Of a stretch of 64,000 nt of DNA, positions 234-8,905 are shown piece by piece (position 1 is the first letter of the stretch; every line of letters begins with the position of its first letter). A program made the position numbers and the translations under genes. Location: positions 620,001-684,000 of the forward strand of contig NZ_JAGINX010000001.1 in assembly GCF_017876395.1 (NCBI RefSeq), given 5' to 3'. The notes under the pieces are model-generated. The model ran no database searches. It worked only from the letters and a program-made list of their open reading frames with translations, and was not told the origin of the DNA. The stretch comes from Nesterenkonia lacusekhoensis (GTDB lineage Bacteria > Actinomycetota > Actinomycetes > Actinomycetales > Micrococcaceae).

Positions 234-304
234 GTTGTGTGGGCACTTTGGGGCGCTCTGAGTGATCCTCGGATGCTCAGAGCGCCCCAAAGTGCCCACA
301 CAAC
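234..304. repeat. 71-nt perfect palindrome (28-15-28), element E1
   Basis: Two 28-nt arms (234-261 and 277-304) are exact reverse complements around a 15-nt loop. The left arm opens GTTGTGTGGGC and ends TCTGA. It lies between the convergent galE and acyl-CoA ligase genes, so it could act as a bidirectional terminator, although no T-tract follows. Its geometry is identical to the elements at 6648-6718 and 7700-7770, which share the GTTGT.TGGGC opening. Its 3' flank GCGGG matches that of the 7700 element. Confidence 0.85.
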
Positions 305-6536: not shown

Positions 6537-6571
6537 GCCGCCGGCCCTCCGGATAACACCAGGAGATTCAG

Positions 6572-6621
6572 GTGCCCCGCGGGGTGGGCCGGTACGCCGG
6601 TCCCTCCCGCGGGGCACTTTT
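6572..6621 (+). terminator. Rho-independent terminator of the symporter gene
   Basis: GTGCCCCGCGGG (6572-6583) pairs with CCCGCGGGGCAC (6606-6617). A CCGG/CCGG inner stem lies between them, and TTTTCT follows immediately. This is the best-formed intrinsic terminator in the window. Confidence 0.85.
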
Positions 6622-6647: not shown

Positions 6648-6718
6648 GTTGTTTGGGCGAAGACTTGCCGTCTCAGAAGGATTTCAGGCGTGAGACGGCA
6701 AGTCTTCGCCCAAACAAC
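6648..6718. repeat. 71-nt perfect palindrome (28-15-28), element E2
   Basis: The arms 6648-6675 and 6691-6718 are exact reverse complements around a 15-nt loop. The left arm opens GTTGTTTGGGCGAAGA and ends GTCTCA. It differs from the element at 7700-7770 at only two of 28 left-arm positions. It lies 54 bp upstream of the DUF559 gene and after the symporter terminator, so it is not needed for termination there. Outer C5/G5 runs could extend the stem past a GA bulge. Confidence 0.9.
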
Positions 6719-6772
6719 GGGGGCTGTGGAGAACTCCCGCCGCTGCTTTCCGTTTCTCGGCAGAATCAGGGC

Positions 6773-7699
6773 ATGCGTCGCCCCGAGGCCCTGCCCCAGA
6801 GATGGAATGGCTGTACCCTCACCCCTGCTCTCCTGCGGGCCGAGGGGATCCACCCGCAGCGACTGCGCCGGGCTGACACCGACCGCGTCTTCTACGGGTT
6901 CTATCGCCAGGACGCAGACCAGCTGACCTTGGGGATGAGGGCTGTGCTGCTCGCCGAGGAGCTGCCGGACTGCGTGGTCTCCGACGTCACGGCTGCCCGC
7001 GTGCTGGGCCTGCACCTTCCCTGGGAGGTCGCCCGCGACGACGCCGTCCACCTCACTCAGCCTGCGGGCACCGCGCGCCGCATCCGCCGGCACGGTGTGA
7101 CCAGTCACCGACGAGAGCTTCGAGAGGGGCAGGTCATGCTGATCGGGGGCGTGCCGGTCACGACGCCGGCGCGGACCTGGTTCGACCTCGCGGCTCGGTG
7201 TTCGCTGACCAGCGTGGTCGCCTTCGGGGACCAGTTGGTGCGTCAGCCGCGGCAGAGGTTCGAGGGCCGGGACGAACCCTTCGCTTCGCTGAGGGAGTTG
7301 GTCGGCGTCGTCGAAGAGGCCGGACGGGTGCCGGGCAAGGCCCGGGCGAAGGAAGCGCTGGGACTGATCCGCGTGGGGGCGGACTCGTTCAAAGAGACGG
7401 AGCTGCGGCTGGCTCTGGTGGATGCTGGCCTGCCCGAGCCGGAGCTGCAGGTGCCGGCGGATCCGGCGGATCCGTTCAGCCACCCGGCGGATATGGGCTA
7501 TCCCGGGCTGAAGATCGCCATCCAGTATGACGGTGGGACGCACTTCGACCCTGACCAGCAGCGACGAAACCAGCGGCGGGACAACGACTTCCATGCCCAG
7601 GGGTGGCTGCTGCTCTGCTACAACAGCTCAGATGCGCAGAACGGTTTCCGTCGTGCGGTCTCGCAGGTTCGATCAGCAGTCCGCCTCCGTGCCACTTGA
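6773..7699 (+). CDS. DUF559-type protein with Vsr/PD-(D/E)XK nuclease-like C-terminus and AbiEi-like N-terminus
   Basis: A 308-residue protein. The N-terminal 150 residues resemble the AbiEi-like region often found in actinobacterial DUF559 proteins. The C-terminal 100 residues carry the restriction-endonuclease-like core: FKETELRLALVDAGL, then an Asp in PADMGYPG, LKIAIQYDGGTHF, and RRNQRRDNDF before GWLLL. The residue that is commonly Glu in E-Y-D-G is Gln here, so catalysis is uncertain. ATG 6773 is preferred because upstream in-frame starts would translate through a terminator and a palindrome. The gene is bracketed by near-identical palindromes, the second starting one base after the stop. 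Its role is unknown. Confidence 0.75.
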   Translation: MRRPEALPQRWNGCTLTPALLRAEGIHPQRLRRADTDRVFYGFYRQDADQLTLGMRAVLLAEELPDCVVSDVTAARVLGLHLPWEVARDDAVHLTQPAGTARRIRRHGVTSHRRELREGQVMLIGGVPVTTPARTWFDLAARCSLTSVVAFGDQLVRQPRQRFEGRDEPFASLRELVGVVEEAGRVPGKARAKEALGLIRVGADSFKETELRLALVDAGLPEPELQVPADPADPFSHPADMGYPGLKIAIQYDGGTHFDPDQQRRNQRRDNDFHAQGWLLLCYNSSDAQNGFRRAVSQVRSAVRLRAT

Positions 7700-7770
7700 G
7701 TTGTTTGGGCGAAGAGTTGCTGTCTCAGGGTCGAAATCCCGCTGAGACGGCAACTCTTCGCCCAAACAAC
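7700..7770. repeat. 71-nt palindrome (28-15-28), element E3
   Basis: Arms 7700-7727 and 7743-7770 pair with a single T:G mismatch (7721/7749) around a 15-nt loop. It begins immediately after the DUF559 stop codon and ends 17 bp before the tatD -10 box. Together with E2 it forms long inverted-repeat borders around the DUF559 gene. No T-tract follows the stem. Confidence 0.9.
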
Positions 7771-7801: not shown

Positions 7802-8905
7802 GTGAGTGAAGCGCGTGACGATCAGCAGAGCCCGACGCCGGCTGACCCGGCTGCCGATGGGGCGGTGACCCCCGGGGCGCCCTTCTCCGGCGAGCACCTC
7901 CGAGGCGAGTCCACCTCGGACCGGCCCACCTCGGACCGGCCCACCTCGGACCGGCCCACACCCGGGCAGACGCCGCCGGCCTACCTGCCCAAGGAGCAGC
8001 AGGCGCCCGAGGACGGCCCAGTGCGCAGCGCGACGGAGGAGAAGTCCAAGAAGAAGCGTCGCCTGGACTACCCTCCGGCTCCGGAGCCGCTGCGGGTGCC
8101 GGTGATCGACAACCACGCCCACCTGGACTTCCGCGACGGCCAGGTCGCCGTCAGCCTGACCCAGCACCTGGACACCGCCGCCGCTCTGGGCGTGGCCGGG
8201 GCCGTCTGCGTGGGCTATGACGTCGCCTCGAGCGAGTTCTCCGTGCAGGCCGCGAACTCGGATCCGCGCGCCAAGGCCGCCGTGGCCCTGCATCCCAACG
8301 ACGCCCCCGAGCTGGCCGAGCGGGGAGAGTACGACTCCGCCTTCGCCCGGATCGCCGAGCTCGCCGCCGACGAGCAGGTCGTGGCCGTGGGTGAGACCGG
8401 TCTGGACTACTTCCGCACCGGCGAGGAGGGCGTGGCCGCCCAGCAGCGCAGCTTCCGCGACCACATCGCCCTGGCCGTCGAGCGCGGCCTGGCCATGCAG
8501 ATCCACGACCGCGACGCCCATCAGGACGTCGTCTCCATCCTCAAGGACGCGCCGGAGCTGCCGCGCAGCGTGGTCTTCCACTGCTTCTCCGGCGACGCCG
8601 AGCTGGCCCGCATCTGCAACGAGAACGGCTGGTACATGTCCTTCGCCGGGACCGTCACCTTCAAGAACTCCTCGGATCTGCGCTCGGCGCTCGCCGTGGC
8701 CGACCCGCACCTGATCCTGGTGGAGACGGACACCCCCTTCCTCACCCCGCACCCCTACCGCGGCCAGCCCAACGCCCCGTACCTGATCCCGCAGACCATG
8801 CGCCTGATGGCCCAGACCCGCGGACTCGAGGACGACGCTGGCCTGGACAGCCTCTGTCAGCAGGTCATGCTCAACACCACCCAGGCCTACGGGAGCTGGA
8901 CGTGA
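7802..8905 (+). CDS. tatD: TatD family metal-dependent hydrolase/DNase
   Basis: A 367-residue protein whose last 270 residues form a TatD amidohydrolase barrel: [10 protein letters not shown] metal-binding pair, [25 protein letters not shown] and [15 protein letters not shown]. TatD proteins are metal-dependent 3'-5' exonucleases/phosphoesterases linked to DNA repair. The first 95 residues are a hydrophilic, low-complexity extension including three tandem TSDRP units encoded by a 15-nt repeat. GTG 7802 is supported by the nearby -10 box, but a later start cannot be excluded. The stop overlaps the ksgA start by GTGA, so the two are translationally coupled. Confidence 0.9.
7915..7962. repeat. 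15-nt in-frame tandem repeat in tatD
   Basis: About three head-to-tail copies of a CTCGGACCGGCCCAC unit encode repeated TSDRP. Being a multiple of three, copy-number change keeps the frame, so this may vary between strains. Confidence 0.8.

Follow-up and report, generated by a model that had tools for sequence, protein, structure and literature searches.

Matched long palindromes accompany an AbiEi-like, DUF559-type nuclease gene family in Nesterenkonia and may be its cognate sites

Two nearly identical 71-nt palindromes enclose a single nuclease-like gene in Nesterenkonia lacusekhoensis, which raises the question of whether the palindromes belong to the protein or to the transcription of its gene. 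The gene lies in a 64,000-nt stretch of contig NZ_JAGINX010000001.1 (positions 620,001 to 684,000; hereafter the window, whose own numbering is used below) and encodes 308 residues on the plus strand (6773..7699). The upstream palindrome, E2 (6648..6718, no strand assigned), is perfect, has a 28-15-28 geometry and stands 54 nt 5' of the start codon. The downstream palindrome, E3 (7700..7770, likewise without strand), is 71 nt long, begins 0 nt after the TGA and has one mismatched pair; the palindrome tool parses it as 29-13-29, with the same total span as E2. Coordinates and palindrome scan thus bear out the preliminary description of two 71-nt palindromes around one gene, with left arms that differ at two of 28 positions and with E3 abutting the stop codon. 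N. cremea has an identical copy of E2 at the orthologous place and an E3 counterpart that is perfect. Both E2 and E3 have RNA-fold z-scores of about -13, and none of 200 shuffles folds equally well. A lone 71-nt palindrome elsewhere in the window, E1 (234..304, no strand), shares the ends of E2 and E3 and has a second arm type (GTTGTGTGGGCACTTT...); by reading, it is placed between two convergent genes, and N. cremea has it too. The neighbours of the nuclease-like gene read as a transporter upstream and a TatD-like gene downstream (7802..8905, plus strand), the latter serving as the locus marker in relatives. A GC-rich hairpin with a T run at about 6570..6620 (plus strand), 3' of the transporter-like gene, reads as an ordinary terminator outside the palindrome-gene unit, so a terminator-like element does lie upstream of E2, as had been pointed out. 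An Rfam search of the window gave a single match, a tRNA, and an NCBIfam search gave none.

Profile matches suggest that the family protein has two parts, with an AbiEi-like region for DNA binding at its N terminus and a nuclease region of Vsr/DUF559 type at its C terminus, an architecture that is one element of the explanation favoured below. The window protein matches PADLOC AbiEi models (best E=4.6e-11 over residues 63-142; a second model over 32-144), and the commonest of these models matches 36 of the 42 aligned family sequences. Pfam returns AbiEi_1 alone for the window protein, with a match (E=0.0048) that does not reach the cut-off, and DUF559 has no match there at E<=1. In the C-terminal part of the aligned sequences, DUF559 matches 28 of 42 at E<=0.01 and MTES_1575 matches 19 of 42. 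The DUF559 label of the preliminary description therefore fits the family and is weak for the window member itself. MTES_1575 is described, in the relevant passage of its source, as a Vsr-type REase fold (PMC3710099). A PDB profile search with the window protein gave 3hrl_A as its best match, a weak one (E=0.11). Residues D204, E208, R212, D240, H257 and W278 are among those invariant in all 42 aligned sequences. We take E208, D240, H257 and D266 to be the catalytic residues of the nuclease region. Of 74 sequences, 96% carry D at position 266, which is N in the window protein, and position 251 is Q in most family members. Given the N266 replacement and the prevalence of Q at 251, catalysis by the window protein is uncertain. 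N266 is common to the window protein and its N. cremea counterpart.

The association between palindromes and gene extends well beyond the window locus. The family has 85 matches, in 27 of 30 Nesterenkonia genomes, from which 80 loci were fetched with about 5 kb per side (the window copy, G025:C8 and G021:C77 were left out and two pairs of matches were merged). In a strict scan for palindromes of at least 50 nt, 66 palindromes lie no more than 500 bp from the gene, in a total of 80 kb, and 10 lie in the remaining 712 kb, an enrichment near DUF559-like genes of the kind that the preliminary description proposed to look for. Both sides carry a palindrome at 18 loci, one side at 30 and neither at 32. 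Residues, spacing and a laxer window test were based on the 73 loci with a single unbroken frame, with start codons assigned by a simple rule. The laxer test finds at least one palindrome at 56 of the 73 loci, both at 29 and none at 17, and the same score is reached by 1.9% of 580 displaced windows. A paralogue in the window genome (L056) and its N. cremea counterpart (L061) are among the 17 loci without a palindrome. The Nesterenkonia loci are partly orthologous among related species, and these counts are thus not independent. Spacing is regular: of 27 upstream palindromes in the 73 loci, 26 end 51-184 nt before the start codon and one at 352, and the downstream palindrome starts 0-68 nt past the stop codon or overlaps it. 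Family palindromes are mostly 55-86 nt long. Relative to mononucleotide shuffles, CGCCG and GCCGA are overrepresented in the central 25-mers of a set of 50 non-redundant palindromes, which may point to a minor stem inside the loop that departs from the main axis.

A similar concentration is found outside the genus. Other genera of Micrococcaceae (palindromes of at least 45 nt; L156 dropped from 24 loci) have 17 palindromes in the 23 kb within 500 bp of the gene and 2 in the 46 kb beyond, with a palindrome at 12 of 23 loci. For a different family of the class, 20 of 38 matches from four genomes were scanned, with laxer settings than in the strict Nesterenkonia scan; these loci have 15 palindromes in 20 kb near the gene and 1 in the 99 kb beyond. 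A broad sample of the phylum gives a weak signal (5 palindromes in the 24 kb near the gene and 1 in the 48 kb beyond, at 4 of 24 loci, five of 29 loci having been dropped for short flanks). The four genomes of the other family (loci L240-L259) have 6-11 matches each at E<=1e-20, and several of the flanking palindromes there start CGCCGA and finish TCGGCG. Phages and plasmids were considered as vehicles and rejected, as the protein is rare in their records (1 of 50,697 and 5 of 72,556, respectively).

The two palindromes of a locus resemble each other far more than they resemble those of other loci. Among the 18 two-sided loci, the median likeness of left to right palindrome is 0.53, against a cross-locus median of 0.01, and none of 10000 permutations gives a within-locus likeness as high. 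The best match is the own partner in 13 of the 18; in the remaining five it belongs to a locus that has the same pair of palindrome types. Palindrome likeness also tracks protein likeness (r=0.54 across 44 loci; 0 of 2000 permutations). The correlation drops to 0.21 (unpermuted) among the 909 protein pairs that are less than 60% identical, and palindromes are seldom alike below about 60%. In the clade that includes the window protein, the palindrome pair changed between species and its left and right members stayed alike: left/right likeness is 0.72 at L060, 0.48 at L072 and 0.84 at L084 (which does not adjoin a TatD-like gene), with values of at most 0.15 between these loci. The palindromes of two closer clade members, L072 and L088, have a likeness of 0.41. 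In the close orthologues L070, L080 and L090, each side is nearer to the same side in the other species than to its own partner, which argues against rapid conversion as the means by which pairs are kept matched.

The site itself looks like a long-standing residence of the gene. In a tree of 74 proteins, the window gene falls in a clade of 12 (support 0.80), of which nine members are directly upstream of a TatD-like gene and two more lie about 1.8 kb away. The preliminary description had taken the position of the block as a sign of insertion; a recent insertion at this site is not supported by that distribution, and the gene looks like an old resident, mostly kept by vertical descent. Nine of the 30 congeners have a family gene directly upstream of the TatD-like gene. 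The clade genes at this place (within L260-L289) are in the same orientation as the TatD-like gene in six cases and in the opposite one in three, suggesting inversion between the flanking palindromes; the window gene thus looks like an old resident that has flipped. Both flanks of 28 loci (L262-L289) have five palindromes of at least 50 nt, four of which are beside the family gene (L269, L272 and twice L275) and one of which, at L264, is 1 kb from TatD.

Palindromes of the same sequence also occur alone, at places without the gene. In the 2.74-Mb window genome, a genome-wide search with the pattern GTTGTNTGGGC...GCCCANACAAC and a spacer left free at 35-65 nt (permitting spans of 57-87) gives 10 copies, all of which span exactly 71 nt, and the reversed pattern gives none; the pattern is therefore not a product of chance. 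These copies form the GTTGT family, which has two arm types, A (E2 and E3) and B (E1). Type B copies lack a linked gene and are placed in the family by their shared ends; as far as seen, a family gene is not directly bracketed by any of the six that were compared. N. cremea has six copies of the GTTGT family and the other 28 congeners have none. The window protein is 99% identical to its N. cremea copy and about 50% identical to its next relative, and a protein search of the genome contigs matched the N. cremea copy alone. In both the window genome and N. cremea, a further gene of the protein family (L059, L064) stands between palindromes of a second family, GATTCGAG; among 74 proteins, the next relative of the L064 protein is 47% identical. 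The GATTCGAG family has 17 copies in the window genome and four in N. cremea with three mismatches allowed, a search made in G000 and G005, and no copies in the remaining 28 genomes, which were searched by exact pattern. Two of the four N. cremea copies bracket the unbroken gene. In the window genome a frame of about 356 aa, which by eye looks transposase-like, interrupts the bracketed gene (L303, G000:C1:2397258-2399659). The GATTCGAG palindromes of this split gene outnumber the GTTGT family in the window genome. Both families tested are confined to two of the 30 genomes, exactly those in which the cognate gene was found, and the presence of the palindromes follows the cognate gene.

Comparison between the two genomes indicates that some of the lone copies occupy places that are empty in the other. 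The window genome has 23 lone copies of the two families; E1 is shared with N. cremea, and the sites of 18 were sought there. Five sites are empty in a continuous alignment, with fairly sharp junctions at L008 and L295 and ragged ones at L209, L300 and L302. Four more have no palindrome in N. cremea in a poor alignment or unrelated sequence (L002, L007, L009, L298), two have a palindrome that has diverged (L001 and the L056 copy), one holds a full unit (L293), and six gave no call (L006, L010, L291, L294, L296, L301). In the opposite direction, three N. cremea copies were sought in the window genome; the site of L019 is empty, and those of L023 and L024 were not found. Empty sites of the kind that the preliminary description named thus exist for five window-genome copies and for L019 of N. 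cremea, and most of their junctions are not sharp. By eye, no target-site duplication is seen in the flanks of 14 + 13 copies (L002 excluded), a reading that a short duplication could escape, and no fixed insertion sequence was seen at the copies. By reading, lone copies are mostly beside the 3' ends of genes and not at promoters.

The most telling site is the 3' end of gatB (label by reading; loci L293 and L062). Here the window genome has a lone GATTCGAG palindrome, and N. cremea has, in the same short interval, a full palindrome-gene-palindrome unit with other palindromes. In 16 other congeners there is no family gene within 2.4 kb and no palindrome of at least 50 nt near the gatB end, where shorter terminator-like hairpins are present. 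A palindrome-bracketed family gene lies about 2 kb from the gatB site in G016, and a family gene also lies about 2 kb from it in G013.

The arms themselves give an indication of what is being conserved. Conservation across the 42 arms of 21 GATTCGAG copies is 90-100% at positions 1-16 and 19-24, and the search pattern contained positions 1-13 and neither 14-16 nor 19-24. Positions 17, 18 and 25 are conserved at 57-62% and are paired in 15, 10 and 9 of the 21 copies, respectively. Since fixed positions thus flank mispairing ones, it is sequence and not hairpin stability that is conserved in this family, as would be expected of a protein-binding site with two arms and not of a hairpin under selection for stable folding. 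Only the GATTCGAG family has a clear 16+6 pattern. In the GTTGT family, the six type B copies have the same fixed outer 16 positions with a looser inner arm, and the seven type A copies are conserved and mostly paired over nearly the whole arm. Covariation beyond column composition is not detected in the GATTCGAG family, where 107 of 500 shuffles are as high on the cells paired. Among 1571 pairs in arms next to genes, read on the sense strand of the gene, there are 38 A-C and 34 G-T mismatches, and no RNA-type pairing preference is thus apparent. Neither E2 nor E3 is followed by a T run on either strand, and the two matches of a terminator scan are other hairpins. Termination as the main role of the palindromes was rejected on the missing T run, the missing RNA-type mismatch bias and, for the one family concerned, the missing covariation beyond composition.

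The explanation that we favour, and consider probable, is that the palindromes are cognate sites of the AbiEi-like/DUF559 enzyme and that the unit seeds lone copies. The flanking palindromes would be recognition sites of the protein, each arm constituting one long half-site, with the AbiEi-like region recognizing the palindromes and the nuclease acting at or near them. Gene and palindromes would form a unit that is long kept at one place but can now and then invert or relocate. Lone palindromes would be copied from it to further intergenic positions in its genome, much as has been proposed for REPINs and RAYTs, here with an unrelated enzyme. The parts of this explanation differ in strength: the protein likely binds the palindrome, whereas the odds that the nuclease acts there and drives the copying are about even. 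The upstream palindrome may in addition serve as the operator of its own gene.

The main rival is autoregulation alone, in which the AbiEi-like domain uses the palindromes to repress the gene that encodes it, and the lone copies are a small regulon or relics that spread by other means. The AbiEi similarity of the protein agrees with this, as do the 51-184 nt that separate 26 of 27 upstream palindromes in the 73 loci from the start codon and the binding of AbiEi to a long inverted repeat in its own promoter, as given in part of PMC3985639. A matching palindrome is, however, often found at or past the stop codon as well, the lone copies are by reading mostly at gene 3' ends and not at promoters, and both the copies at sites empty in N. 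cremea and the conserved nuclease residues are left unexplained; we therefore regard an operator-only role as unlikely. A 3' location and very stable hairpins would instead suit bidirectional terminators that insulate the gene and share ancestry through duplication, an alternative already raised in the preliminary description. That reading is highly improbable, given that E2 and E3 are without a T run on both strands, that a separate terminator-like hairpin precedes E2, that mismatches have no RNA-type bias and GATTCGAG arms no covariation beyond composition, that fixed positions flank freely mispairing ones in the same family, and that palindrome sequence tracks protein sequence.

The Vsr-like nuclease similarity and the presence or absence of a unit at the same site would also be in keeping with a homing or toxin-like selfish gene, which cuts chromosomes lacking the unit or kills upon its loss, with the palindromes as protected sites or repair scars. 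Yet lone palindromes without a gene are common, insertion sites differ, and the gene is rare in phage and plasmid records, which leaves little probability for such an origin. Integron attC-like sites were dropped because the core order, by eye, is reversed.

RAYTs are Y1 transposases related to IS200/IS605, and REPs and REPINs have been described in pseudomonads, stenotrophomonads and others. In its behaviour, the REPIN/RAYT system is the closest known one. According to passages of two studies, RAYT genes are flanked on both sides by palindromic elements with cognate repeats dispersed intergenically, REP abundance is tied to the cognate RAYT gene, and orthologous RAYT genes occur with switched repeats (PMC3686654, PMC3116915); the palindromes on both sides of an enzyme gene, the cognate-dependent dispersal and the orthologues with changed repeats described here have the same character. 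The differences are equally clear. The enzyme is AbiEi-like plus Vsr/DUF559-like and not HuH/Y1; the window protein has no Pfam match to a Y1 (HuH) domain at E<=1. Each element is one palindrome, mostly of 55-86 nt, compared with the 20-40 bp stated for a REP in a passage of PMC3733652. The GT[A/G]G mark that a section of PMC3686654 ascribes to REPs is, by reading, absent at the ends of E2, E3 and the GATTCGAG copies. Several paralogues are present per genome, each with its own palindromes, and the two families counted here have 4-17 copies, against the 101 doublets of one REP group cited in part of PMC3116915. A search for a RAYT elsewhere in the genome gave none (best PF01797 score 14.2 bits, cut-off 23). 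The REPIN/RAYT-like pairing suggested in the preliminary description is thus supported in part, by the bracketing, the matched pairs that co-diverge with the protein, the dispersal in two genomes, some empty sites and the traits at odds with termination; a recent insertion is not supported.

Other systems share individual features. AbiE type IV toxin-antitoxin systems are similar in that AbiEi models match the N-terminal region and in that AbiEi binds a long inverted repeat in a promoter; the repeat bound by S. agalactiae AbiEi in its own promoter has 11-bp perfect arms that extend to 23 bp, as stated in an excerpt of PMC3985639. They differ in that a nuclease-like domain follows here and that the palindromes are on both sides and dispersed. 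One gene only is enclosed between E2 and E3 (neighbours labelled by reading), and an AbiEii partner is thus not present between them. Vsr-fold nucleases of the DUF559/MTES_1575 type match the C-terminal region of many members. None of the titles and abstracts found by searches of the open-access literature describes a DUF559-type protein paired with palindromes. Presence or absence at orthologous sites and lone non-coding copies recall insertion sequences and MITEs; the ends here are whole palindromes and not one inverted-repeat arm each, and there is no target duplication by eye.

We tentatively propose, at somewhat below even confidence, that these units are a separate class of enzyme-linked mobile palindromes. 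Such a class would combine an AbiEi-type region with a Vsr-fold nuclease and would have private, co-evolving specificities, several per genome; its vertically inherited units would flip, move and seed lone copies, as an actinobacterial, non-homologous counterpart of REPIN/RAYT. Many actinobacteria have several copies of such DUF559 proteins, whose role is unexplained, and a cognate site in DNA offers them a function that experiments can address. The locus-specific pairs of protein and site are also a ready set for asking how an AbiEi-type domain picks its sequence. If the proposal is true, a REPIN-like way of life would seem to have originated twice, the second time with a nuclease of unrelated descent, which would bear on the reasons for the long persistence of small palindrome populations in bacteria.
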